From contig NZ_RRYI01000001.1 in assembly GCF_003931565.1 (NCBI RefSeq), positions 62,001 through 126,000 of the forward strand: 64,000 nucleotides of DNA, written 5' to 3'. The DNA comes from Caulobacter sp. 602-1. GTDB taxonomy: Bacteria; Pseudomonadota; Alphaproteobacteria; Caulobacterales; Caulobacteraceae. The position numbers and the translations under genes are program-made. Shown in pieces: positions 8,145-19,562 of this stretch (positions within the stretch are counted from its first letter, which is position 1; each line of letters opens with the position of its first letter). The notes beneath the pieces were generated by a model. It was not told the origin of the DNA and made no database searches. It saw only the letters and a list, made by a program, of their open reading frames with translations.

Positions 8145-8226
8145 GGCGCGGGGGACGACCCCCGCGCCTTTTGCTTGTCGCGAAGACCGATTGTCCGGGG
8201 ACGACCCCACCTTTTCAGAAAAGGGG
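8145..8226 (+). promoter_or_regulatory. Guanidine-II (mini-ykkC) riboswitch
   Basis: Two hairpins with identical ACGA loops. P1 has a 10-bp stem GGCGCGGGGG (8145-8154)/CCCCCGCGCC (8159-8168). P2 has GGGG (8197-8200)/CCCC (8205-8208). Paired hairpins with ACGR loops define the guanidine-II class, and the downstream gene is a guanidinium exporter. The 3' half of P2 can instead join CCTTTT (8210-8215) in pairing with AAAAGG (8219-8224) and GG (8225-8226), which covers the ribosome binding site AAGGGG. Ligand-stabilised P2 would therefore free translation. P1 followed by TTTT could also act as a weak terminator for the upstream gene. Confidence 0.88.
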
Positions 8227-8232
8227 CTCGTC

Positions 8233-8556
8233 ATGGCCTGGATCATCCTCCTTATCGCCGGCCTCTTCGAAGTGGGCTGGGCCGTGGGCCTGAAGTTCAC
8301 CGAAGGCTTCACCAAGCCGATCCCGATCGCGCTGACCGCCATCAGCCTGGCGCTGTCCATGGGCCTGTTGGGCTGGGCGGTGAAGACCCTGCCGCTGGGC
8401 ACGGCCTACGCCGTCTGGACCGGCGTCGGCGCGGTCGGCACGGCCATCGTCGGCATCGTGCTCTTCAAGGAGCCGGCGACCGCGGCCAGGCTCGTCTGCC
8501 TGGGCCTGATCGTGGCCGGAATCCTGGGGCTGAAGGTCTTCTCGCCGACGGCCTAA
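8233..8556 (+). CDS. gdx: Guanidinium exporter Gdx (SugE), small multidrug resistance family
   Basis: 107 residues with four predicted membrane helices. The first contains the essential glutamate of the SMR family ([18 protein letters not shown]), the pattern of the SugE/Gdx branch rather than EmrE. It exports guanidinium in exchange for protons as an antiparallel dimer. The start at 8233 has AAGGGG at 8221-8226; in-frame codons upstream fall within the riboswitch. Expression should rise with guanidine through the leader. The stop overlaps that of the convergent hydrolase by 4 nt. Confidence 0.92.
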
Positions 8557-9359: not shown

Positions 9360-10856
9360 CTACTTCGCCTTGGGCGAGGTTTTGGCGGGCGCCTTTGTCA
9401 CGGGCGCCTTTGTCGCGGGCGCCTTGGCGGCGGCCGCCTTCGGAGCCGTGGTCTTCGGGGCCGCGGCGGCTTTCGGAGCGGCCGCCTTGGGCGCGGCCTT
9501 GGCGGCGACCGGCTTCGCGGCCGGAGCCTTCGGGGCGGCTTTCGGCGCGGCGGTCTTGGCGGGAGCCGGAGCGGCCTCGGCCTTCGGCTTGGCCGGAGCC
9601 TTGGGCTTAGCGGCAGGCGCGGCCTTCGCGGCCGGGGCCGGAGCGGCCTTGGCGGCGGGCTTCGGCGCGGCGGCGGCCTTGGCCGGAGCCTTGGGCTTGG
9701 CGACCGGAGCAGCCTTCGCGGCCGGCGCGGGTTTGGCGGCCGGCGCGGCCTTGGCCTTCGTGGCCGGCTTCGGAGCGGCCTCGGTCTTGGCGGGCGCGGC
9801 CTTGGCCGTCGCCTTGGGCTTCGCCTCGGTCTTCGGCTTGGCGGCGGCCTTGGGGGCCGCGGCCTTCTTCGGCGCGGGCTTCTCGGCCGCCGGAGCGGGA
9901 GCGGCCGCCACGGGGGTTGGCGCGGGGGCCGGGACCGGCGTTGGGGCTGGAGCCGGCGTCGGGGCAGGCTCCGCCGCCTTTACCGGCGTCGGCGCGGGTT
10001 CGGGCGGCTTGGCCGGAGCCGGAGCCGGAGCCGGAGCCGCGGCGGGCGCGGGAGCCGGAGCCGCCGTGGCGGCCGGAGCTTTGTTCTTGCCCGTCAGCCA
10101 GGCGATCACGTCGTCGAGGATCTTCATCGTGTTGGGCTCGTCTATGAGATAATGGGCGTTGTTGGGGTAGATCTTGAGTTCGGCCTGCGGGTATTTGCGG
10201 CCGAGACGCTGGACATCGTCCAGCGGCGTGGTGCGGTCCAAGGCGCCGGCATTGACCAGGATCGGCACGGTCACCTTGGTTTCATCGACATAGGCCGTCT
10301 TGTGGACGTCCTTGTGCGGCCAAGCCAGGTCGGCCAGCGCCTGGCCGCTGTCATAGACCATCGTGGCGTAGAGCGCGTCGTGACGCTCGGCCGGCACGGC
10401 GTTCATGACGCCGAACTTGAAGCCGGTCTTCCACATCTTGCCCGCCCGGGTCTCGGGCCTCGATTGGAGGGCCATGTTCAGGAAGGTGAAGACCGGAGAA
10501 AGCTTGGGCTTGCCGCGCGCATCGGCCGGCGAAGCCGGGGCGAACAGCACCAGAGCCGACGCATGGCCGGCCTCGGCGACCTTCTGGGCGATCAGCCCGC
10601 CCATCGAATGGCCGAAGACCAGTGGCTTCTTGCCGGTCTCCTTGGCCAGGGTCTGGGCCAGGGCGCTCATCTCGGCGACATAGTCGGCCAGGGAGAGGCC
10701 GACCAGGCCCGCGCGCGGCCCCTCGACCGTGCGCACCGCCGACCGGATGGTCGGCGCCACCACGCTATAGCCTTCGGCCTTCAGCCGCGCGGCGACGGGA
10801 CCCCAGACATCCCCCGCGCAGCCGTAGCCGTGAATCAGCAGAACCGTATCCGCCAT
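9360..10856 (-). CDS. Alpha/beta hydrolase with a 240-residue Ala/Pro/Lys-rich tail
   Basis: 498 residues. Residues 1-258 are a complete alpha/beta hydrolase: LLIHGYGCAGDVW, nucleophile GHSMGG (Ser84), Asp207 (AGALDRTT) and His235 (NNAHYL). From residue 259 to the end the sequence is almost only Ala, Pro, Lys with some Thr/Glu, in imperfect repeats such as KAAPAAKPKAPAK. It resembles eukaryotic H1 tails or the bacterial AlgP type and is expected to be disordered and basic. The ATG at 10854-10856 is preceded by GGGGAG; an upstream in-frame start would overlap rppH. The tail could bind DNA, RNA, polyphosphate or cell wall. Function unknown. Confidence 0.85.
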   Translation of the reverse strand: MADTVLLIHGYGCAGDVWGPVAARLKAEGYSVVAPTIRSAVRTVEGPRAGLVGLSLADYVAEMSALAQTLAKETGKKPLVFGHSMGGLIAQKVAEAGHASALVLFAPASPADARGKPKLSPVFTFLNMALQSRPETRAGKMWKTGFKFGVMNAVPAERHDALYATMVYDSGQALADLAWPHKDVHKTAYVDETKVTVPILVNAGALDRTTPLDDVQRLGRKYPQAELKIYPNNAHYLIDEPNTMKILDDVIAWLTGKNKAPAATAAPAPAPAAAPAPAPAPAKPPEPAPTPVKAAEPAPTPAPAPTPVPAPAPTPVAAAPAPAAEKPAPKKAAAPKAAAKPKTEAKPKATAKAAPAKTEAAPKPATKAKAAPAAKPAPAAKAAPVAKPKAPAKAAAAPKPAAKAAPAPAAKAAPAAKPKAPAKPKAEAAPAPAKTAAPKAAPKAPAAKPVAAKAAPKAAAPKAAAAPKTTAPKAAAAKAPATKAPVTKAPAKTSPKAK

Positions 10857-10879
10857 TCGGTACTCCCCAGCGCGGGAGA

Positions 10880-11368
10880 TCAGCCGCCGCGCGCGAACCC
10901 CTGGAACGCGGCGACCACAGCTTCGTAGACCCCGCGCTTGAAGGGTACGATCAGTTCGGGTGCTTCGTCGAGCCTGCCCCATTTCCAGGCGTCGAACTCG
11001 ACGTGCTCGTCCGCTTCCAGATCGATCTCGGCCTCGTCGCCGATGAAGCGATAGGCGAACCAGACCTGCTTCTGCCCGAGCCAGCCGCGCGAGCGCTTTT
11101 CGTTGGCCAGCACCTCGGGCGGAAAGTCGTACGTGATCCAGCCTTCGGTGCGGCCCAGGAGTTCGACGGAGCTGACGCCGGTCTCCTCGGCCAGCTCGCG
11201 GCGCGCCGCCGCCTCCAGGTCCTCGCCCTCGTCGACGCCGCCTTGCGGGAACTGCCAGTTGTAGGGCGGCGGCTGTTTGTGGCGACGACCCAGCCAGACG
11301 CGGCCGTCAGGATGGAACAGGACGATGCCGACATTCGGGCGGTGCTTGGGATGGTCGAGCTCGGTCAT
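10880..11368 (-). CDS. rppH: RNA pyrophosphohydrolase
   Basis: 162 residues of the NudH/IalA Nudix subfamily, which removes pyrophosphate from 5'-triphosphate RNA ends and so starts mRNA decay. The Nudix box runs from residue 43 to 65 (GGVDEGE...REL...EETG). The flanking WQFPQGG and the C-terminal WKWGRLDEAP segment are typical of RppH. It lies 22 nt downstream of the polysaccharide deacetylase-like gene on the same strand, matching the usual alphaproteobacterial order. Confidence 0.94.
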   Translation of the reverse strand: MTELDHPKHRPNVGIVLFHPDGRVWLGRRHKQPPPYNWQFPQGGVDEGEDLEAAARRELAEETGVSSVELLGRTEGWITYDFPPEVLANEKRSRGWLGQKQVWFAYRFIGDEAEIDLEADEHVEFDAWKWGRLDEAPELIVPFKRGVYEAVVAAFQGFARGG

Positions 11369-11390: not shown

Positions 11391-12572
11391 CTAGTGGTGC
11401 GCCAGGGCCGACGCCGGGGCTAGCTGCATCCCGCGCGCCTGCAGGCCGGCGGCCCAGATGCGCACCTGGTTGATCGTCACCGGATAGGCGAAACCCGAGC
11501 CCAGCGACTGTCCGCGACCGGCCGCGCCCGTCTCCAGCGCCCTGAGCTGGGTGTCGATGGCGCCGGCCGACAGCTCGTCGTCGATCACCCGGTCCGCCGA
11601 GGCGCGCGGGATCGGGCCGGCGCGGCGTGAGGCCAGGCCGTCGTCGACGAAGGCCAGGCCCCGCGACTTGAGCACGCCGTTGAAGGTCGCCATCGCCTGG
11701 TCGTTGTCGACAAAGCGGGCGCCCAGATAGTTCGACAGACCGAAATAGCCGGTGGCGCGCGACATCAGCCACTCCAGCTTGCGCACGGTGTCCTCGGGCC
11801 GGTTGGCGGCGATCAGGGTGTAGGGACCCGGATCGTTGGCCGGATAGTCGGCCGGCTCCATCGGGGTCTCGAGCAGGACCTCGTGGCCGTGGGCGCGGGC
11901 CAGATCGATCCAGCCCTGCAGGCCCTCGGCATAGGGCGCGAAGGATAGGGTGATCTCGCCGGGCAGGGTCTCGATCGCCGCGCGGGTGGTTTGAGCGTTG
12001 AGGCCCAGCCCGCCGATGACCACCGACACCTTGGGGCGGCCGTTGGGCGTGAACGGGCGGGCATAGGCCTCGGCCGCGGTGCGGCCGTCGGCGCCGATGA
12101 TCGGCAGCGGACCGCCGCCGGGGCCCGGCGCGGTCAGGCCGGCGATCGGCGCCTGGGCCAGGCCCGGGCCCTGCTGGATCGGCGGCAGGTTCTGAAGACC
12201 CTCGGCGGTCGGGGCCTGGGCGTCCTCGGGCTTCACGGGCGCGAAGGGATTGGCCGACAGGCCCAGCTGGCCGGGGACCAGTTCGGCCTCGTGCGCGCCT
12301 TCGCCGCCCAGGCCTTCGCGCCAGCCTTCGGGCGCGTTCTTGGTGGCGCCGATCTTCGTCAGCTCCAGCCGAATCACAGGCGAGCCGGCATGGGGGTCGC
12401 TGGTGATCAGGACCAGCGTCGCCAGCGAGGCCAGGAACAGGCAGGCCGCGCCGCTGGCGCCGATGAACGGATTGCTGACCGCGGCCATCAGCTTGGCGCG
12501 CAGGTCGCCGGACCCGCCCGGAGCGGGCGTGGCGGCGGCATAGGCGGGCTTACGCGAGAAGGAGACGGCCAT
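11391..12572 (-). CDS. Divergent polysaccharide deacetylase family protein (YibQ-like)
   Basis: 393 residues. There is one N-terminal membrane helix (about residues 38-58, GAACLFLASLATLVLI), a Pro-rich linker and a C-terminal deacetylase-like barrel (VSVVIGGLGLNAQTTRAAIE, SFAPYAEGLQGW, ETPMEP, FVDDGLASRR). This is the DUF610/Polysacc_deac_2 family, thought to act at the cell wall near EnvC and CtpA. The first Asp of true deacetylases (DDxG) reads GGLG here, so one catalytic ligand is replaced and activity is doubtful. Followed by rppH. Confidence 0.85.
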   Translation of the reverse strand: MAVSFSRKPAYAAATPAPGGSGDLRAKLMAAVSNPFIGASGAACLFLASLATLVLITSDPHAGSPVIRLELTKIGATKNAPEGWREGLGGEGAHEAELVPGQLGLSANPFAPVKPEDAQAPTAEGLQNLPPIQQGPGLAQAPIAGLTAPGPGGGPLPIIGADGRTAAEAYARPFTPNGRPKVSVVIGGLGLNAQTTRAAIETLPGEITLSFAPYAEGLQGWIDLARAHGHEVLLETPMEPADYPANDPGPYTLIAANRPEDTVRKLEWLMSRATGYFGLSNYLGARFVDNDQAMATFNGVLKSRGLAFVDDGLASRRAGPIPRASADRVIDDELSAGAIDTQLRALETGAAGRGQSLGSGFAYPVTINQVRIWAAGLQARGMQLAPASALAHH

Positions 12573-12783
12573 GACCCGTTGAGGCTAGCGGGGAAGCTTC
12601 CAACATATGGTTAACGAGATATGGCCAGAGGACGTCCTGCCGGCCCTCGCGCTGCGACGCGGCGACGCGGGCGCCGCTGAAATTGGCGTTTTCTGCAATC
12701 GCGGCGGGCGCTGAACGATCACGGCGTTCGCGCGAGACCTGATCGGTTGACGGGCGCGCGCATGGCCCATCTCCTGAAGACCT
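12573..12783. other. Gap upstream of the deacetylase and of the glycine riboswitch
   Basis: No gene seen. The gap must hold the minus-strand promoter of the deacetylase and the plus-strand promoter of the riboswitch transcript. TTGACG at 12747-12752 is a possible -35 for the latter, but no convincing -10 follows. Confidence 0.3.
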
Positions 12784-12971
12784 CTCGCGGGAGAGATCGG
12801 GCCCCTGGCCCGGCGCTGAAGGCGAAACCACCCCGGAAACGCTCAAGCAGAAGGACCGCGCGAGACGTTGAACGCTGGAAAGCAGGGCGCGTACCGCCCT
12901 CGCCGAAGGAGCAAGGCGACCGCCCGTCCATCGGAGGCGGGGCGCTGAATCTCTCAGGCCCAAGGACAGCG
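12784..12971 (+). promoter_or_regulatory. Tandem glycine riboswitch
   Basis: Two glycine aptamers in series. Aptamer 1: P1 CTCGCG (12784-12789)/CGCGAG (12859-12864), with GGGAGAGA at 12789-12796, the CTGAAGGCGAAA segment and GCTCAAGCAGAAGGACC near 12841-12857. Aptamer 2: P1 CGCTG (12873-12877)/CAGCG (12967-12971), GCCGAAGGAGCAA at 12902-12914 and CTCTCAGGCCCAAGGACAG at 12951-12969. These are the conserved core elements of the class, separated by an 8-nt linker as in known tandem pairs. Transcription runs towards the TonB-dependent receptor, not a glycine cleavage operon. The expression platform is not evident; a stem at 12983-13001 (GCGAGCCG/CGGTTCGC) lacks a T tract. Confidence 0.9.
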
Positions 12972-13263
12972 GGGGTGTGAAGGCGAGCCGTCCCGGTTCG
13001 CTCAGACCCACGCGTGCGCCAATGTCGATCTAGCTGATCCCGTTTATCGATATAGCGAAATGTATTGAACGCGATCGTCATGAACGACTTTCGCGAAATA
13101 TCTATTATAAGTTCACCTATCAATATTACCGATGTTCATAAATTCGGCAAAGCTGTGCAACGTTTTAACTTTGTGAATATTTGGCCCTATTCCTTACGTT
13201 TCTTGATTTACCGATGGTGTCGCCTTGATGACGTTGCCCTGGTCAAAATGATTGGGGATAGTC
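12972..13263 (+). other. AT-rich leader between glycine riboswitch and receptor gene
   Basis: A hand count of 13081-13200 gives 42 G+C in 120 bases (35%), against about two thirds in the flanking genes. No gene is seen. It may hold a second promoter or binding sites for the receptor gene, or be part of a long 5' UTR. GGGGA at 13254-13258 is the receptor's ribosome binding site. Confidence 0.6.
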
Positions 13264-15654
13264 ATGACCACTCACGGATCCGCACGCACCGCCGCCCGCC
13301 TTAGGGCGCTTCTTCTCGCAGCCACCGTCCTGGGGGGCGCGACGCCGGTCCTGGCCCAGGAGGCCGACAAGGCCGCCGAATTGGAAACCGTCGTGGTGAC
13401 GGGCAAGCGCCTGTCGGAAGCCAGTGTCGCCATCGGCACCGACCACGCCACGGCCACCGTCTCGATCACCCGCGAGGCCCTGCTGTCGGCGCCGGCCGGG
13501 ATCACCGGTCTGAAGATGCTGGAGAGCCTTCCGGGCTTCAACGTCCAGGCCAACGACGCCCTGGGCATGTACGAGTTCGGCAACTCGGTCTCGGTGCGGG
13601 CCTTCAACTTCCAGCAGATCGGCTTCCTGCTGGACGGCATCCCGATGGGCCGCAGCGACCAGTTCGGCGGCAGCCCGATCTATCGCTATGTCGACAACGA
13701 GAACCTGCTGCGGGTGACCGCCTCGGCTGGGGCCGGCGACGTCGCCCTGCCCAGCTACGCTTCGCTGGGCCCCATCGTCGACTACTTCACCCAGGCCCCG
13801 TCGCAAGACGCTGGCGGCGCGATCAGCCAGACCTTCGGCAGCGACGATCTGCGCCGCACCTTCCTGCGCCTGGAGTCTGGCAAGGTGGGTCCGCTGTCGG
13901 GCTATGTCAGCGGCTCGTGGATCAAGGGCGATCTGTGGCGCGGTCCGGGCACGATCGATCGCAAGCACTACGAGGGCAAGCTGAAGTACGACCTGCCCAA
14001 CGGCGGCGACATCAGCTTCCAGACCGTCCACAACGACTATTTCGATTATGACAGCCCGTCGATCACCAAGGCCCAGTACGCCGGGACGGCGGGCGACGTG
14101 TTCGGCCGCCAGGGGCGCTATTTCGCCTATCTGGGCGCGGTGCCGACCTCGGTCCCGTTCGGCACGCCGCTGTCGATCCCGACGGGCAGCTTGCCGGAAG
14201 CCGTGGCGGGGGTGCCGTACTCCAACGCCAACTACGCCCAGTACTACAAGTTCGCCGTCAACAAGCGGAAGGACCACCTCTACGGTCTGACGCTGAACAC
14301 GCCGATCACCGACAATTTCGACCTGACCACCACGGCCTATTACGAGGACAAGGGCGGCTACGGCGTCTCGCCGGAGGCCTACGCCACGTCCAAGGCCAGC
14401 TACGACGCCGAGGTCGGCAAGGTGGCGGGCATCGTCGCCCCACGCGGCATCCAGTACGGCCTGTCCGGCATCGACGGGATCCGCAAGGGCGTCACCGCCA
14501 AGGTCGCCTGGCATCTTGGCTTCAACAAGATCGAGGCCGGCCTCTGGCTGGAGAACGACGACTATCACCGCACCCAGAACCGCTACAATGTCGAGAACGG
14601 CAATCCCGACGGCAAGCCGTTGTTCAACGAGCGGGTCCACGCCCAGCGCGACTACAAGTCGCTGCGCGAGACCAAGCAGTTCTTCGTCAAGGACACCGTC
14701 ACCCTGCTGGACGCCAAGCTGAAGCTGGAGCTGGGCTTCAAGGCCACCGACATCGACTACAAGATCGCCGGCTATCGCAATCCGGCCGACTATATCAACG
14801 GCCGCCACCCGATCCTGAAGGACAACTGGAAGGACAGCTTCCTGCCCCAGGTCGGCGCGGTCTACAGCGTGACCGGCCGCGACCAGATCTTCGCCTCGTA
14901 TTCGGAGAACATGGCCCTGCCGCGCGGCGCCGACGACATCTTCTCGGCCGCCAGCCCGACCGTCGCCGGCCCCGATCCCGAGACCTCGACCAACTGGGAA
15001 CTGGGCTACCGCGCCAACCACAAGACGTTCAACGCCTCGATCGTGGCCTACCAGACCGAGTTCAAGAACCGCCTGCAGGCCTTCGCCTCGCTGGTGCCCG
15101 GCGGCGGCGGCACGACCGAGACCTTCTACCAGAACGTCGGGGCGGTGAAGGCCAAGGGCGTCGAGTTCAGCGGCCAGTGGAAGCCCGAACTGTTCGCCGG
15201 CAAGGCCTATTTCAACGCCAACGTCTCGTATAACGACGCCAAGTTCCAGGACGACGTCCTGAACTATCGCGCCAGCACCACGGCCGCGCCGACCACCCTG
15301 GCCGTCGCCGGCAAGAAGGTGCCGGACTTCCCCGACTGGGTGTTCCAGGGCGGCGTGACGCTGGAGCCTTTCGACGGCCTGCTGATGAACATCTCGGCCC
15401 GCCACCTGGAGAGCCGCTTCACCAACTTCATCAACAGCGAGAAGGTCGGCGGCTACACCATCGTCAACGCCTATATCGACATCGGCGACGGCTTCGCGGC
15501 CGGGCCGTTCAGCCAGGTCAAGGCGCGGGTCAATATCGATAACCTGTTCGACAAGGACTATCTGGGCACCATCAACACCACGGTGAACACGCCCGCCAGC
15601 TTCCGCCCGGCGCCGCCGCGCACGATCCAGTTCACGATCTCCGCCGACTTCTAG
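13264..15654 (+). CDS. TonB-dependent outer membrane receptor
   Basis: 796 residues. A signal peptide ends near VLAQ (about residue 32), then comes a TonB-box-like ETVVVTGK, a plug domain (LKMLESLPGFNV, GFLLDGIPMG) and a long beta barrel that ends in the aromatic residue F (FTISADF), as needed for BAM insertion. The ATG at 13264 is chosen for GGGGA 5 nt upstream and for the signal peptide; a TTG at 13252 is the longer option. It imports an unknown ligand with TonB energy. It lies downstream of a glycine riboswitch and upstream of a secreted dipeptidase, which suggests a peptide or amino-acid derivative. Confidence 0.93.
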   Translation: MTTHGSARTAARLRALLLAATVLGGATPVLAQEADKAAELETVVVTGKRLSEASVAIGTDHATATVSITREALLSAPAGITGLKMLESLPGFNVQANDALGMYEFGNSVSVRAFNFQQIGFLLDGIPMGRSDQFGGSPIYRYVDNENLLRVTASAGAGDVALPSYASLGPIVDYFTQAPSQDAGGAISQTFGSDDLRRTFLRLESGKVGPLSGYVSGSWIKGDLWRGPGTIDRKHYEGKLKYDLPNGGDISFQTVHNDYFDYDSPSITKAQYAGTAGDVFGRQGRYFAYLGAVPTSVPFGTPLSIPTGSLPEAVAGVPYSNANYAQYYKFAVNKRKDHLYGLTLNTPITDNFDLTTTAYYEDKGGYGVSPEAYATSKASYDAEVGKVAGIVAPRGIQYGLSGIDGIRKGVTAKVAWHLGFNKIEAGLWLENDDYHRTQNRYNVENGNPDGKPLFNERVHAQRDYKSLRETKQFFVKDTVTLLDAKLKLELGFKATDIDYKIAGYRNPADYINGRHPILKDNWKDSFLPQVGAVYSVTGRDQIFASYSENMALPRGADDIFSAASPTVAGPDPETSTNWELGYRANHKTFNASIVAYQTEFKNRLQAFASLVPGGGGTTETFYQNVGAVKAKGVEFSGQWKPELFAGKAYFNANVSYNDAKFQDDVLNYRASTTAAPTTLAVAGKKVPDFPDWVFQGGVTLEPFDGLLMNISARHLESRFTNFINSEKVGGYTIVNAYIDIGDGFAAGPFSQVKARVNIDNLFDKDYLGTINTTVNTPASFRPAPPRTIQFTISADF

Positions 15655-15664
15655 TCCCCGCCCT

Positions 15665-15700
15665 CCGGTCGGCCTCTGCAAGGGCCGGCCGGACCCTTTT
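15665..15700 (+). terminator. Terminator-like hairpin between receptor and dipeptidase
   Basis: CCGGTCGGCC (15665-15674) pairs with GGCCGGCCGG (15683-15692) with one G-T pair, followed by ACCCTTTT. It may lower dipeptidase expression relative to the receptor rather than end the operon. Confidence 0.5.
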
Positions 15701-15711
15701 CGAGCGTACCC

Positions 15712-16932
15712 ATGACCCGTTTCCTTCTCGCCACGACCGCCGCCCTGGCCCTGGTCGCCGGCGCCGCGCCCATGACGGCCTGGGCCGCCGATCCGGCCGC
15801 CGCGCGCAAGCTGCACGAGGGCCTGCTGACCCTCGACACCCACCTGGACACCCCCGCTAATTTCGGCCGGCCGGGCTGGGACATCCTCGACCGCCACTCG
15901 GCCGACAAGGACGGCTCGCAGATCGACTATCCCCGCATGGTCGAGGGCGGGCTGGACGGCGGCTTCTTCGCCATCTTCACCAACCAGGGACCGCGCACGC
16001 CCGAGGCCACGCGGGCGGCCCGCGACGCGGCGATCATCCGCGGCGTCGAGATCCGCGAAATGGTCGCCAAGCACGGCGACAAGTTCGCCCTGGCCCTGAA
16101 GGCCGACGACGCCGAGCGCATCGCCGCCCAGGGCAAGCGCGTGGTGTTCGTCAGCGTCGAGAACAGCTATCCGATGGATGGCGACGTTACCCTGCTGTCG
16201 ACCTTCTATGCGCTGGGCGTGCGGATCTCGGGCCTGGCCCACTTCAAGAACAACGACATGGCCGACAGCTCGACGGACACGCCCGAGTGGCATGGCCTGT
16301 CGCCGCTGGGGAAACAGTTCGTCGCCGAGGCCAACCGCCTGGGCGTGGTGCTGGACGGCTCGCACTCGTCCGACGAAGTGCTGGATCAGCTGATCGCACT
16401 CTCGAAGACGCCGGTGATCCTGACCCATTCGGGCTGCAAGGCGGTGTTCAACCATCCGCGCAATGTCGACGACGCCCGCATCAAGGCCCTGGCGGCCAGC
16501 GGCGGCGTCATCCAGGTCGACGCCTATTCCAGCTACTTGATCGAGACGCCCAAGAACGCCGAGCGCGACGCGGCCATGGCGGCGCTGCGGGCCAAGGCGG
16601 GCGCGCGGGCCAAGATGACCGAGGCCGAACGCGCGGGCTTCATGGCCGAGATGAAGGCCATCGACGCCAAGTACCCGGTCCCGAAGGCGACCTTCGAGGA
16701 CTTCATGAACCACCTGAACCACGCGCTGAAGGTGGCCGGCGTCGACCACGTCGGGATCGGCATCGATTTCGACGGCGGCGGCGGGGTGACCGGTCTGAAC
16801 GACGCCTCGGACTACTGGAAGATCAGCGAGCGCCTGCTGGCCGAGGGCTACACCCGCGACGACTTGGCCAAGATCTGGGGCGGCAATGTCCTGCGGCTGC
16901 TGCGCGCGGCCGAGGCGGCCAAGGCCGCGTAG
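15712..16932 (+). CDS. Secreted membrane-dipeptidase family (M19) metallopeptidase
   Basis: 406 residues with a Sec signal peptide (to about AWA, residue 25). All metal ligands of the M19 renal dipeptidase family can be placed: His44 and Asp46 (DTHLDT), Glu150 (SVENSYP), His218 (DGSHSS) and His239 (LTHSG), plus the VGIGIDFDGG segment. Such enzymes cut dipeptides, including those with D-residues or C-terminal Gly, in the periplasm with two zinc ions. It starts 57 nt after the TonB-dependent receptor, so receptor and enzyme probably form one uptake-and-cleavage unit. Confidence 0.93.
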   Translation: MTRFLLATTAALALVAGAAPMTAWAADPAAARKLHEGLLTLDTHLDTPANFGRPGWDILDRHSADKDGSQIDYPRMVEGGLDGGFFAIFTNQGPRTPEATRAARDAAIIRGVEIREMVAKHGDKFALALKADDAERIAAQGKRVVFVSVENSYPMDGDVTLLSTFYALGVRISGLAHFKNNDMADSSTDTPEWHGLSPLGKQFVAEANRLGVVLDGSHSSDEVLDQLIALSKTPVILTHSGCKAVFNHPRNVDDARIKALAASGGVIQVDAYSSYLIETPKNAERDAAMAALRAKAGARAKMTEAERAGFMAEMKAIDAKYPVPKATFEDFMNHLNHALKVAGVDHVGIGIDFDGGGGVTGLNDASDYWKISERLLAEGYTRDDLAKIWGGNVLRLLRAAEAAKAA

Positions 16933-16941
16933 GGCAGAAAC

Positions 16942-16975
16942 GAAAAGCGCCGCCCCGGTTGCCCGGAGCGGCGCT
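16942..16975 (-). terminator. Terminator of ctpA
   Basis: AGCGCCGC (16946-16953) pairs with GCGGCGCT (16968-16975), with an inner CCGG/CCGG pair. On the minus strand it is followed by TTTTCGTTTC. The plus-strand side has no T tract. Confidence 0.8.
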
Positions 16976-17001
16976 GATTGGATCGAGGAAGGCGGAAAGC
17001 C

Positions 17002-18393
17002 TTACTTGTTTTCGCTGACCGGCTTGCCGGCCGCCGCCGCGGCGGCCTTGGCGGTGACCTCGGCGACCTTGGCCGCCGGCTTGGGCAGCTTCGGCGTATT
17101 GGCGACGCCGCCGGCGTTCAGCACGGCGATGGCGCGCTGCAGCTGGAAGTCGCCCTTCTTGTCGTCGAAGGCCGTCGGCGGGGCTTCGGCGGGCGTGTGG
17201 ACGCCCACGCGGGTCTTGCCCTCGTCGGCGTTCAGCGCGTTCTTGAAGCTGGCCTCGCTGAACCAGACGCGGTTGGCGATGTCCTGGGCCTGGTCGCGGG
17301 TCTGGGCGACCTCGAGGTCCGGGGCGATGCCGGTCTTCTGGATCGAGCGGCCCGACGGCGTGAAGTAGCGCGCCGTGGTCAGTTTCAGGGCGCCGTCGGC
17401 CCCGCCGCGCAGCGGGATCACGGTCTGGACCGAACCCTTGCCGAAGCTGGTCAGGCCGACCAGTTCGGCGCGGTGGCGATCCTGCAGCGCGCCGGCGACG
17501 ATTTCCGCCGCTGACGCTGAGCCCTGGTTGATCAGCACGACCATCTTCATGCCGTTCAGCAGATCGCCGGGACGGGCGTTGTAGCGCTGGATATTGCGCG
17601 GATCGCGGCCGCGCTGGCTGACCACTTCGCCGCCGTCCAGGAACACGTCGGCCACACCGACCGCCTGGTCCAGCAGACCGCCCGGATTGTTCCGGAGGTC
17701 GAGGATCAAGCCCTTCATCTTCGGGTTCTTGGCCTTCAGCTCGTTGATGGAGGCGACCAGGGCGTCGGTGGCCTTCTCGTTGAAGCCGGGCAGGCGGACA
17801 TAGCCGTAGTCGCCTTCCATGCGGGCGATGGCGGCCTTGGGCTTGATCACCTCGCGGACCAGCTTGACGTCGAACGGATCGGTCTTATCGCGAGCGATGG
17901 TCAGGGTGACGGCTTCGCCGGGCTGGCCCCGCATCTGCTTGACCGCCTCGTTGACGGTCAGGCCCAGCACGCTCTGGCCATTGACGGCGGTGATGTAGTC
18001 GCCCGCCTGGACGCCGGCGCGCGAGGCCGGAGTGCCATCCATCGGCGAGATCACCTTCACGACGCCGTCCTCGCTGGTCACTTCCAGGCCGAGACCGCCA
18101 TATTCGCCGCGGGTGGTGTCCTGCATGTCCTCATAGCTGTCGGGCGACAGATAGCCCGAGTGCGGGTCGAGGCTGGTCAGCATGCCGTCCAGCGCCGCTT
18201 CGATCAGCTTCTTGTCGTCGACCTCGGTGACGTACTGGTCCTCGACCGTGCCCAGCACGTCGCCGAACAGCTCGAGCATCTTGTAGGTCTTGGTCTTGGG
18301 CGCGTTGTTCGCCTGGGCGATGGGACTGACATAGGCCATGGCCCCCGCGCCGAGGACGAAGGCCGAAACTCCGATGAGCAGATACTTGCGCAT
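17002..18393 (-). CDS. ctpA: Carboxyl-terminal processing protease (S41)
   Basis: 463 residues. There is an N-terminal signal/anchor (MRKYLLIGVSAFVLGAGAMA), a PDZ domain (about 95-180; GGLGLEVTSEDG, PASRAGVQAGD) and an S41 protease core with catalytic Ser294 (GSASAAE) and Lys319 (TSFGKG), 25 residues apart as in E. coli Prc. The C-terminal tail is Ala/Lys/Pro-rich. It acts in the periplasm on envelope proteins. The start at 18393 is the first residue of the signal; a longer frame would begin in unsuited sequence. Downstream of the EnvC-like gene on the same strand. Confidence 0.95.
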   Translation of the reverse strand: MRKYLLIGVSAFVLGAGAMAYVSPIAQANNAPKTKTYKMLELFGDVLGTVEDQYVTEVDDKKLIEAALDGMLTSLDPHSGYLSPDSYEDMQDTTRGEYGGLGLEVTSEDGVVKVISPMDGTPASRAGVQAGDYITAVNGQSVLGLTVNEAVKQMRGQPGEAVTLTIARDKTDPFDVKLVREVIKPKAAIARMEGDYGYVRLPGFNEKATDALVASINELKAKNPKMKGLILDLRNNPGGLLDQAVGVADVFLDGGEVVSQRGRDPRNIQRYNARPGDLLNGMKMVVLINQGSASAAEIVAGALQDRHRAELVGLTSFGKGSVQTVIPLRGGADGALKLTTARYFTPSGRSIQKTGIAPDLEVAQTRDQAQDIANRVWFSEASFKNALNADEGKTRVGVHTPAEAPPTAFDDKKGDFQLQRAIAVLNAGGVANTPKLPKPAAKVAEVTAKAAAAAAGKPVSENK

Positions 18394-18506
18394 TAGGCCC
18401 AGAAGGCTCCCTGGCGACGCGCGGCGTCGCAAACCAATTTTAGCCCCATCCAACCACTGTCAGAAGCCGGAGGTATAATTACGGCCACCATTACTGAAAA
18501 AGCCGT

Positions 18507-19562
18507 CTACCGCGACTCCTGTTTGAGCCAACGCTCCGGATCGGCCGGCGCGCCGTTCTCCCGGACCTCTAGATAGAGTTCCGGCTCCGAAGATACATGA
18601 TCCGGCATCTTGCCGATGGGGGCGCCGGCCGCGACAGATTGTCCGGGTGACGCGGTAATCTGGTCGAGGCCCGCCACGACCACGTGATAGGCGCCCTGGG
18701 CTCGAAGAATCAGCACCGCGCCCCAGCCGTTCAGCGCGCCGGCGTATTCGACCGTCCCCGCGACCGGCGCGTTGACGGTCAGGCCCTTCTCCGTGCGCAG
18801 GGTCAGGCCTGGCGACTTGCCGCCGGCCGGCATGTCCTGGCCAAAGCGGCGCACGATCTCGCCCGCGGCGGGAGGGCGCAGCACCAGCGGCCCGGTGGCC
18901 TCGACCCGACCCAGGCCGTCGGTCAGGGCGCCCAGGGTGCGCAGCTCATTCTGCTGGGTCAGGGCTTCCTGGGCATAGGCCCGCTCCAGCTGGGTCTTCT
19001 CGATGATCAGCCGCTCGATCTCGCCCTTGCGGTCGGCGACCGCGCTCTCGGCGGTGAACAGTTCCGCCGAGGCGGCGGCGGCCTCGCGGCGCAGGGTCCC
19101 GACCGCCACGGCCTGGCGGCCATAGGCCTCGGCGCGGCGCTGCAGCTCCGGCGTCATGGCCCGGATCAGGATCGCGGCGCGCACCGCGTCGCGCGCGTCG
19201 TTCGGCGTCACCAGCAGGGCCGGCGGCGGATCGCGGCGAAACAGCTGCAAGGCCGACAGCAGCAGCGACAGCCGCTGCCGGTTGGCGCCCAGGTCGGCCA
19301 GTATGGCGTTCTCGCGGGCGTTCAGGGATTCCAGCCGCGCCCGCTTGGCGTCGACATCGCCGCCGGCGGCGATGCGGGCGTGGTCCAGGCGGTCCAGCTC
19401 GGCCCGTAGATCCTCGATCTCGCGGCGGGTGTCGATGGCGGTCTGGCGATCCTTGGCCCGCTGGTCCTCGATCGCGCGATCGGCGCGCTGCCAGCCGACC
19501 ACGGCCGTCGGGACGGCGAGGGCCAGGGCGCAGAGGGCGATGACGAGTCGCGAGCGGGACAT
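18507..19562 (-). CDS. EnvC-like murein hydrolase activator with degenerate LytM domain
   Basis: 351 residues. An N-terminal signal or anchor (LVIALCALALAVPTAVVGW) is followed by long coiled-coil segments (about 30-110 and 165-215) and a C-terminal M23/LytM domain (LTVNAPVAGTVEYAGALNGWGAVLIL). The zinc-binding HxxxD and HxH residues of active M23 peptidases are absent (GLTLRTEKG, YHVVVAGL), as in E. coli EnvC, which activates amidases at the septum. In Caulobacter the matching protein is, from memory, LdpF. It precedes ctpA with rlmH, rsfS and nadD upstream, a conserved order. Confidence 0.87.
   Translation of the reverse strand: MSRSRLVIALCALALAVPTAVVGWQRADRAIEDQRAKDRQTAIDTRREIEDLRAELDRLDHARIAAGGDVDAKRARLESLNARENAILADLGANRQRLSLLLSALQLFRRDPPPALLVTPNDARDAVRAAILIRAMTPELQRRAEAYGRQAVAVGTLRREAAAASAELFTAESAVADRKGEIERLIIEKTQLERAYAQEALTQQNELRTLGALTDGLGRVEATGPLVLRPPAAGEIVRRFGQDMPAGGKSPGLTLRTEKGLTVNAPVAGTVEYAGALNGWGAVLILRAQGAYHVVVAGLDQITASPGQSVAAGAPIGKMPDHVSSEPELYLEVRENGAPADPERWLKQESR

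Follow-up and report, generated by a model that had tools for sequence, protein, structure and literature searches.

The closest described relatives of the locus studied here are the tandem glycine riboswitches of gcvT operons, whose leaders are taken to be ON switches. The available part of one survey recognises three groups of genes under glycine regulation (glycine metabolism, glycine transport and serine metabolism), and covers the Caulobacterales with no mention of TonB (PMC3766115). The part of a second study that we could access, which mentions neither TonB nor Caulobacter, describes a gcv type of switch in which aptamer 1 is conserved and a transporter type ("TP") in which aptamer 2 is conserved, in line with ON and OFF regulation, respectively; the glycine-riboswitch transporters are mostly OFF switches (PMC6944388). 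In Gluconobacter oxydans, cobalamin riboswitches precede TonB-dependent receptors, and the glycine riboswitch precedes gcvT only, according to the text available to us (PMC5756330).

In this study, we have explored a tandem glycine riboswitch that precedes the genes for a TonB-dependent receptor and an M19 dipeptidase in a 64-kb stretch of Caulobacter sp. 602-1 DNA (the window). This locus shares with the gcvT-operon riboswitch the RNA class, the two aptamers, the better conservation of aptamer 1 and a hairpin after aptamer 2, and a gcvT-type riboswitch is also present in the same genome. It differs in that its genes encode an outer-membrane receptor and an exported dipeptidase rather than glycine cleavage, its leader is longer after aptamer 2 (about 290 nt), and its aptamer 1 belongs to a U-A subtype. 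Set against the gcv class as the available text of PMC6944388 presents it, the locus has the aptamer-1 conservation but not the glycine-cleavage target. With the TP class of the same text it shares uptake genes downstream; that class, however, has transporters such as symporters and a better conserved aptamer 2, whereas the window has a TonB-dependent receptor and a better conserved aptamer 1. The likeness to the cobalamin system of Gluconobacter (PMC5756330, in part) is that of a riboswitch leader before a receptor, but the aptamer and ligand class are different.

The earlier note, made from the letters of this DNA, knew of no described system of this make-up, and our searches of the open-access literature found no description of a glycine riboswitch before a TonB-dependent receptor. 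A literature search by presumed Caulobacter locus tags returned nothing on the window receptor. Four expressed riboswitches are reported for C. crescentus in the available portion of PMC4117421, and the aptamer at the window receptor may already be among them. What we describe brings together an RNA class and protein families that are each known; we found no earlier description of this combination, and the arrangement is real, conserved and repeated.

The tandem riboswitch and the genes that follow it

The two aptamers with a conserved core that had been read by eye are matched by the covariance-model search that had been proposed for them, both at about 62 bits against an RF00504 gathering cut-off of 32. 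Aptamer 1 (12778..12868, + strand), which carries the U-A subtype of the P3a pair, scores 62.6 bits, and its match begins 6 bases before position 12784, where the feature had previously been started. Aptamer 2 (12865..12979, +), with a canonical core, reaches 62.5 bits in a search confined to its own stretch, which rules out that it is absent; wider RF00504 searches list aptamer 1 alone, probably because the 4-base overlap of the two matches hides aptamer 2. The aptamers thus form the two-aptamer tandem of this family. Since the RF00504 scores and the conservation in 22 genomes together exclude chance, the tandem glycine riboswitch ahead of the receptor is confirmed. RF00504 and RF01068 were the only families at gathering score in an Rfam search of the 64-kb window, and this search found no cobalamin aptamer in the receptor leader. 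A Twister-sister candidate at 12753-12830 (21.2 bits against a gathering score of 34) overlaps aptamer 1 and was treated as chance. The fold energy of 12770-13020 was uninformative (z -0.20).

The next genes on the strand are those originally proposed. The receptor (13264..15654, +; 796 aa), which we call type W, has both the beta-barrel (PF00593, 145 bits) and the plug (PF07715, 26.9 bits for a cut-off of 23.9) of a TonB-dependent receptor over their cut-offs; it falls under all NCBIfam cut-offs, and that search gave no substrate call. The M19 dipeptidase gene (15712..16932, +; 406 aa) begins 57 bases past the receptor stop. Its product has a signal peptide by eye, matches PF01244 at 318.1 bits and has 2rag as its closest solved chain (E 1e-119). 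It has the motifs THLDTP, VSVENS, DGSHSS and LTHSG, in which, by renal dipeptidase, we take the five metal ligands to sit; the M19 domain and these motifs together identify it as a membrane dipeptidase of this family. Between this gene and a convergent S41 protease gene, the fold of 16931-17002 and a reading of the sequence point to an inverted repeat, a possible terminator, at 16946..16975.

Recurrence with other receptors and other hydrolases

The 5.4-Mb genome that contains the window (G000) has three tandem glycine riboswitch sites. One precedes gcvT and gcvP (genes named by reading of their translations), one is the window site, and the third (C109:828979-829162) lies before a different receptor of 904 aa, type P, followed by an S9 peptidase and an amidohydrolase; two of the three therefore precede a receptor-plus-hydrolase unit. 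RF00504 was present in all 75 Caulobacter genomes searched. Leaving aside the known gcv sites, we collected 38 stretches: 31 in Caulobacter (20 before type W and 11 before type P receptors), five in genus g3, all of type P, and two in G092. Once two sites of G000 and one of G024 are included, the genus totals come to at least 22 type W and at least 12 type P sites in at least 31 of the 75 genomes, three of which have both; these counts are lower bounds among the matches listed, and weak extra sites may be missed. As a separate observation, G092, from another genus of the family, has one riboswitch before gcvT and one tandem riboswitch (L094:1739-3133) before a gene that reads as serine dehydratase-like.

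Type W orthologs at 74% identity or more were found in 27 Caulobacter genomes, and the riboswitch accompanies 22 of the 26 that could be tested, G041 having too little upstream DNA; the four close orthologs that do not have it are in G038, G034, G073 and G028. Among the matches listed, none of six tested relatives at about 73% and about 61% identity had a riboswitch. The linkage is complete for type P, with a riboswitch at all 21 orthologs (at least 68% identity) found among 249 family genomes. In four genomes (G251, G257, G261 and G258, the receptor match in the last beginning only at residue 280) the riboswitch was predicted from the type P receptor alone and then found in every case. Type P homologs at 51% identity or less had it in none of six tested. 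A third kind of receptor with the riboswitch, type Q, occurs in two genomes (G143 and G168). The three kinds show only weak local similarity to one another, with best E values of 0.12 (W-P), 2e-8 (W-Q) and 2e-11 (P-Q). We also scanned 51 named W-type receptor loci with a nucleotide profile built from the sites of this analysis; this set overlaps with the family genomes and is not independent of them, and the riboswitch was present in 13 loci (11 labelled Caulobacter, one in a bin labelled Inquilinus limosus and one labelled Proteobacteria). The synteny search that had been suggested thus shows that the link between riboswitch and receptor is conserved and that it recurs with other receptors and with other exported amide hydrolases. 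Elsewhere in the family, G128 has a single glycine aptamer (L150:9847-9934, - strand; 39.5 bits) and, between it and a gcvT riboswitch about 2 kb further on, no same-strand open reading frame of at least 250 aa.

An M19 gene lies downstream of the receptor at 13 of the 22 type W sites and is absent at nine, an S9 peptidase gene at all 16 type P sites (of 21) with a stretch long enough, and an S45 penicillin-acylase-like gene at both type Q sites. In the named loci, a same-strand M19 gene follows the receptor in 9 of 13 with the riboswitch and in 13 of 38 without it, where some matches reach only 30-33% identity. Absence at nine of 22 sites rules out the dipeptidase as the regulated core, and the proposal that it is an integral part of the arrangement was not borne out. 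The interpretation of the locus as an uptake module is partly supported: the link between riboswitch and receptor is conserved and recurring, and the dipeptidase is optional. The pairs of a W-type receptor and M19 without a riboswitch include loci in Phenylobacterium, Pseudomonas and Sphingomonas (L183, L202, L205, L206, L216 and others). In the Pseudomonas and Sphingomonas pairs (L202, L205, L206 and L216), the receptor is 54-60% identical to that of the window and M19 is directly downstream, but, unlike in the window, a glycine riboswitch was not found. Because such pairs occur in loci that do not have the riboswitch, the receptor-M19 pair is wider than its glycine control.

Aptamer 1 of the type W and Q leaders has a coupled C-G to U-A change in P3a (GCUGAAGG...CUCAAGCA), whereas the gcv and type P leaders have the canonical form. 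With one mismatch allowed, the U-A subtype was found in 24 of 390 family genomes, always exactly and always before a receptor (the 22 W and 2 Q sites), and none of the 390 had a one-mismatch intermediate. When a 385-genome sample of the class was searched with up to two mismatches, G000 alone gave an exact match and the other matches were canonical. Since the W and Q receptors are not closely related and still have this subtype in common, we propose, from sequence comparison, that a leader with the U-A subtype may have moved between receptors as a cassette.

Leader anatomy and the direction of control

Upstream of aptamer 1, the -35-like box TTGACG (12747..12752, +) lies at a spacing that is fixed in relatives. 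A TTGAC-like box stands 29-32 nt 5' of the aptamer-1 cut point at 22 of 22 W sites (21 TTGAC and one TTGAT), 21 of 21 P sites (17 TTGAC and four TTGCC) and the one Q site tested, against a mean of 0.9 (W) and 1.2 (P) TTGAC-containing sites per set in shuffled upstream sequences. No candidate passed a sigma-70 promoter scan and the -10 region is a poor match; the promoter before aptamer 1 is a prediction.

Directly 3' of aptamer 2 lies hairpin A (12982..13002, +), which covaries in 24 sequences (22 W and 2 Q), with 97.6% of cells paired and both-side changes in eight cells, against 1.8 in shuffles, at three of seven pairs. Hairpin B (13070..13095, +) lies between the riboswitch and the receptor. 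A search pattern built on its outer stem retrieved it from all 22 W leaders, which biases the outer pairs but does not select for the three inner ones. The hairpin has 22 cells changed on both sides, 17 of them in the three inner pairs, which covary, for a shuffled mean of 8.0 over all pairs; two of five covariation measures, those for changing pairs and for additional pair types, did not exceed the shuffles. Further downstream, a distal block (13133..13263, +) with a TGTTCATAA motif, TTTCTTGATTTACC (13199-13212) and GGGGA (13254-13258) before the ATG is conserved in the W leaders. To explain control from 260 nt upstream of the start, we found neither a terminator nor a sequestered Shine-Dalgarno in the leader. 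Two intrinsic-terminator matches in 12560-13320 were rejected as a platform, one being 5' of the riboswitch (12675-12688) and the other inside the receptor gene (13293-13308). The start motif GGGGATA was likewise dropped as a general receptor leader, since it is exact only once in the genome, at the window receptor, with five one-mismatch matches; a looser pattern matched none of 234 loci, missed even the orthologs expected to fit and is uninformative.

Based on these results, our preferred reading, to which we give slightly less than an even chance, is that the tandem leader makes expression of the receptor and of the predicted exported dipeptidase inducible by cellular glycine. Transcription would start at the aptamers and run into the receptor gene, the receptor would carry an amide or peptide-like ligand to the periplasm, and the exported hydrolase would free glycine from it; M19 enzymes cut Cys-Gly and similar dipeptides. 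Glycine would then reach the cytoplasm and bind the aptamers, raising the uptake genes together with gcvT in a feed-forward catabolic regulon. At the scale of the Caulobacteraceae, we see an even chance of a glycine-gated peptide-scavenging regulon that comprises gcvT and three kinds of TonB-dependent receptor with no close relation to one another, each paired with its own exported amide hydrolase (M19, S9 or S45), and in which the receptor-only U-A subtype would have moved between unrelated receptors as a leader cassette. The ON sign is the weakest step of our preferred reading. Observations that weigh against this reading include the distal block kept where there is no riboswitch, the 4 of 26 close orthologs and the six tested relatives at about 73% and 61% identity that do not have one, the failure to find a platform near the start, the mostly OFF character of glycine-riboswitch transporters and the dipeptidase missing at nine of 22 sites.

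The same leader and regulon could instead work in the OFF direction, with high glycine lowering the receptor and the dipeptidase as feedback on uptake, a possibility that we take seriously and hold to be somewhat doubtful. The usual effect of the ligand on uptake genes under riboswitch control is repression, and leader conservation fits either sign. Transporter-type glycine switches are tied to OFF in the accessible text of PMC6944388, but their mark, a better conserved aptamer 2, is found in neither W nor P, which speaks against this sign though not strongly. Core identities for aptamers 1 and 2 are 0.946 and 0.843 in gcv (n=34), 0.970 and 0.888 in W (n=22) and 0.899 and 0.770 in P (n=21), and the gap is a lean rather than proof, as the aptamer-2 columns include variable stems. 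The hairpin right after aptamer 2 is common to the W, Q and gcv leaders, the last taken to be ON, which is again not a strong argument; in 28 of the 34 gcv leaders (the six divergent ones being left out) the hairpin resembles hairpin A but is longer and reaches towards the Shine-Dalgarno, and its outer pairs hardly vary. A folding test compared Shine-Dalgarno exposure with P1 forced and with P1 free, leaving out the sites with no Shine-Dalgarno match (6 of 34 for gcv, 8 of 21 for P). Exposure was greater with P1 forced in no more than 4 of the 28 gcv leaders and 5 of the 13 P leaders; we dropped the test because it would make gcv an OFF switch. Feedback repression by glycine, as the earlier note had it, received no computed support, and a glycine-induced scavenging regulon is weakly favoured over it, aptamer 1 being better conserved in W and P as in gcv.

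Two further readings loosen the tie between glycine and the receptor. Transcription of the receptor could start from a separate promoter within the AT-rich distal block (about 13100-13240), the riboswitch RNA ending early or acting in trans, which we regard as unlikely. The region around 13133-13263 may carry a promoter or an operator; it is kept in three orthologs that have no riboswitch (L136, L137 and, less well, L138), which leaves room for a second promoter, and the long distance between aptamer 2 and the ATG (about 290 nt), with no visible platform acting on the start codon, goes in the same direction. However, hairpin B goes with the riboswitch (22 of 22 leaders with it and, by the same search pattern, none of three type W orthologs that do not have it), the type P leaders are much shorter and have no distal block while keeping the link at 21 of 21 sites, and the arrangement is common to three receptor kinds. 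For a place of the riboswitch in the 5' leader of the receptor speak the strand, the conserved linkage, the -35-like box and hairpin B; against it speaks the distal block that is kept where there is no riboswitch. It is also conceivable, at a very low probability, that the receptor-linked U-A aptamer 1 now prefers a different small amino acid or a derivative of glycine and that the leader does not report glycine. The confinement of a coupled core change to receptor-linked aptamers, 24 of 24 exact with no intermediate in the family and only the window's genome in the class sample, would fit such a shift. Against it, the U-A change keeps the base pair, aptamer 2 is canonical, RF00504 scores remain high and the type P leaders have a canonical aptamer 1.

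Implications for orphan receptors, and other features of the window

Caulobacter species have many TonB-dependent receptors that have no known substrates. If glycine does switch on these genes, as in our preferred reading, it would become the first amino acid known to control active transport across the outer membrane by means of a riboswitch. The RNA would then indicate the cargo of orphan receptors, namely peptides or amides that contain or yield glycine. As the regulatory RNA would name a product of the cargo, it would open substrate assignment to direct tests. That the arrangement recurs with three families of hydrolase also provides an internal replicate that is beyond the reach of a single locus.

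At 8147-8556 (+) the window holds a second riboswitch, of the guanidine-II class (36.1 bits for a gathering score of 32), directly before an SMR exporter gene of the SugE type, which scores 138.1 bits in NCBIfam against a cut-off of 126; this is a known arrangement. An alpha/beta-hydrolase-like frame (9360-10982, - strand) has, by eye, a very long C-terminal tail rich in Ala, Pro and Lys. Convergent with the dipeptidase gene are an S41 C-terminal processing protease gene and a LytM-like gene (together 17002-19562, - strand). The latter is 1056 bp, the length stated for CCNA_03547 in the available text of PMC8144410, and is a candidate match only; CCNA_03547 is LdpF, described in the accessible part of PMC5607218 as an FtsEX-linked EnvC-like protein.
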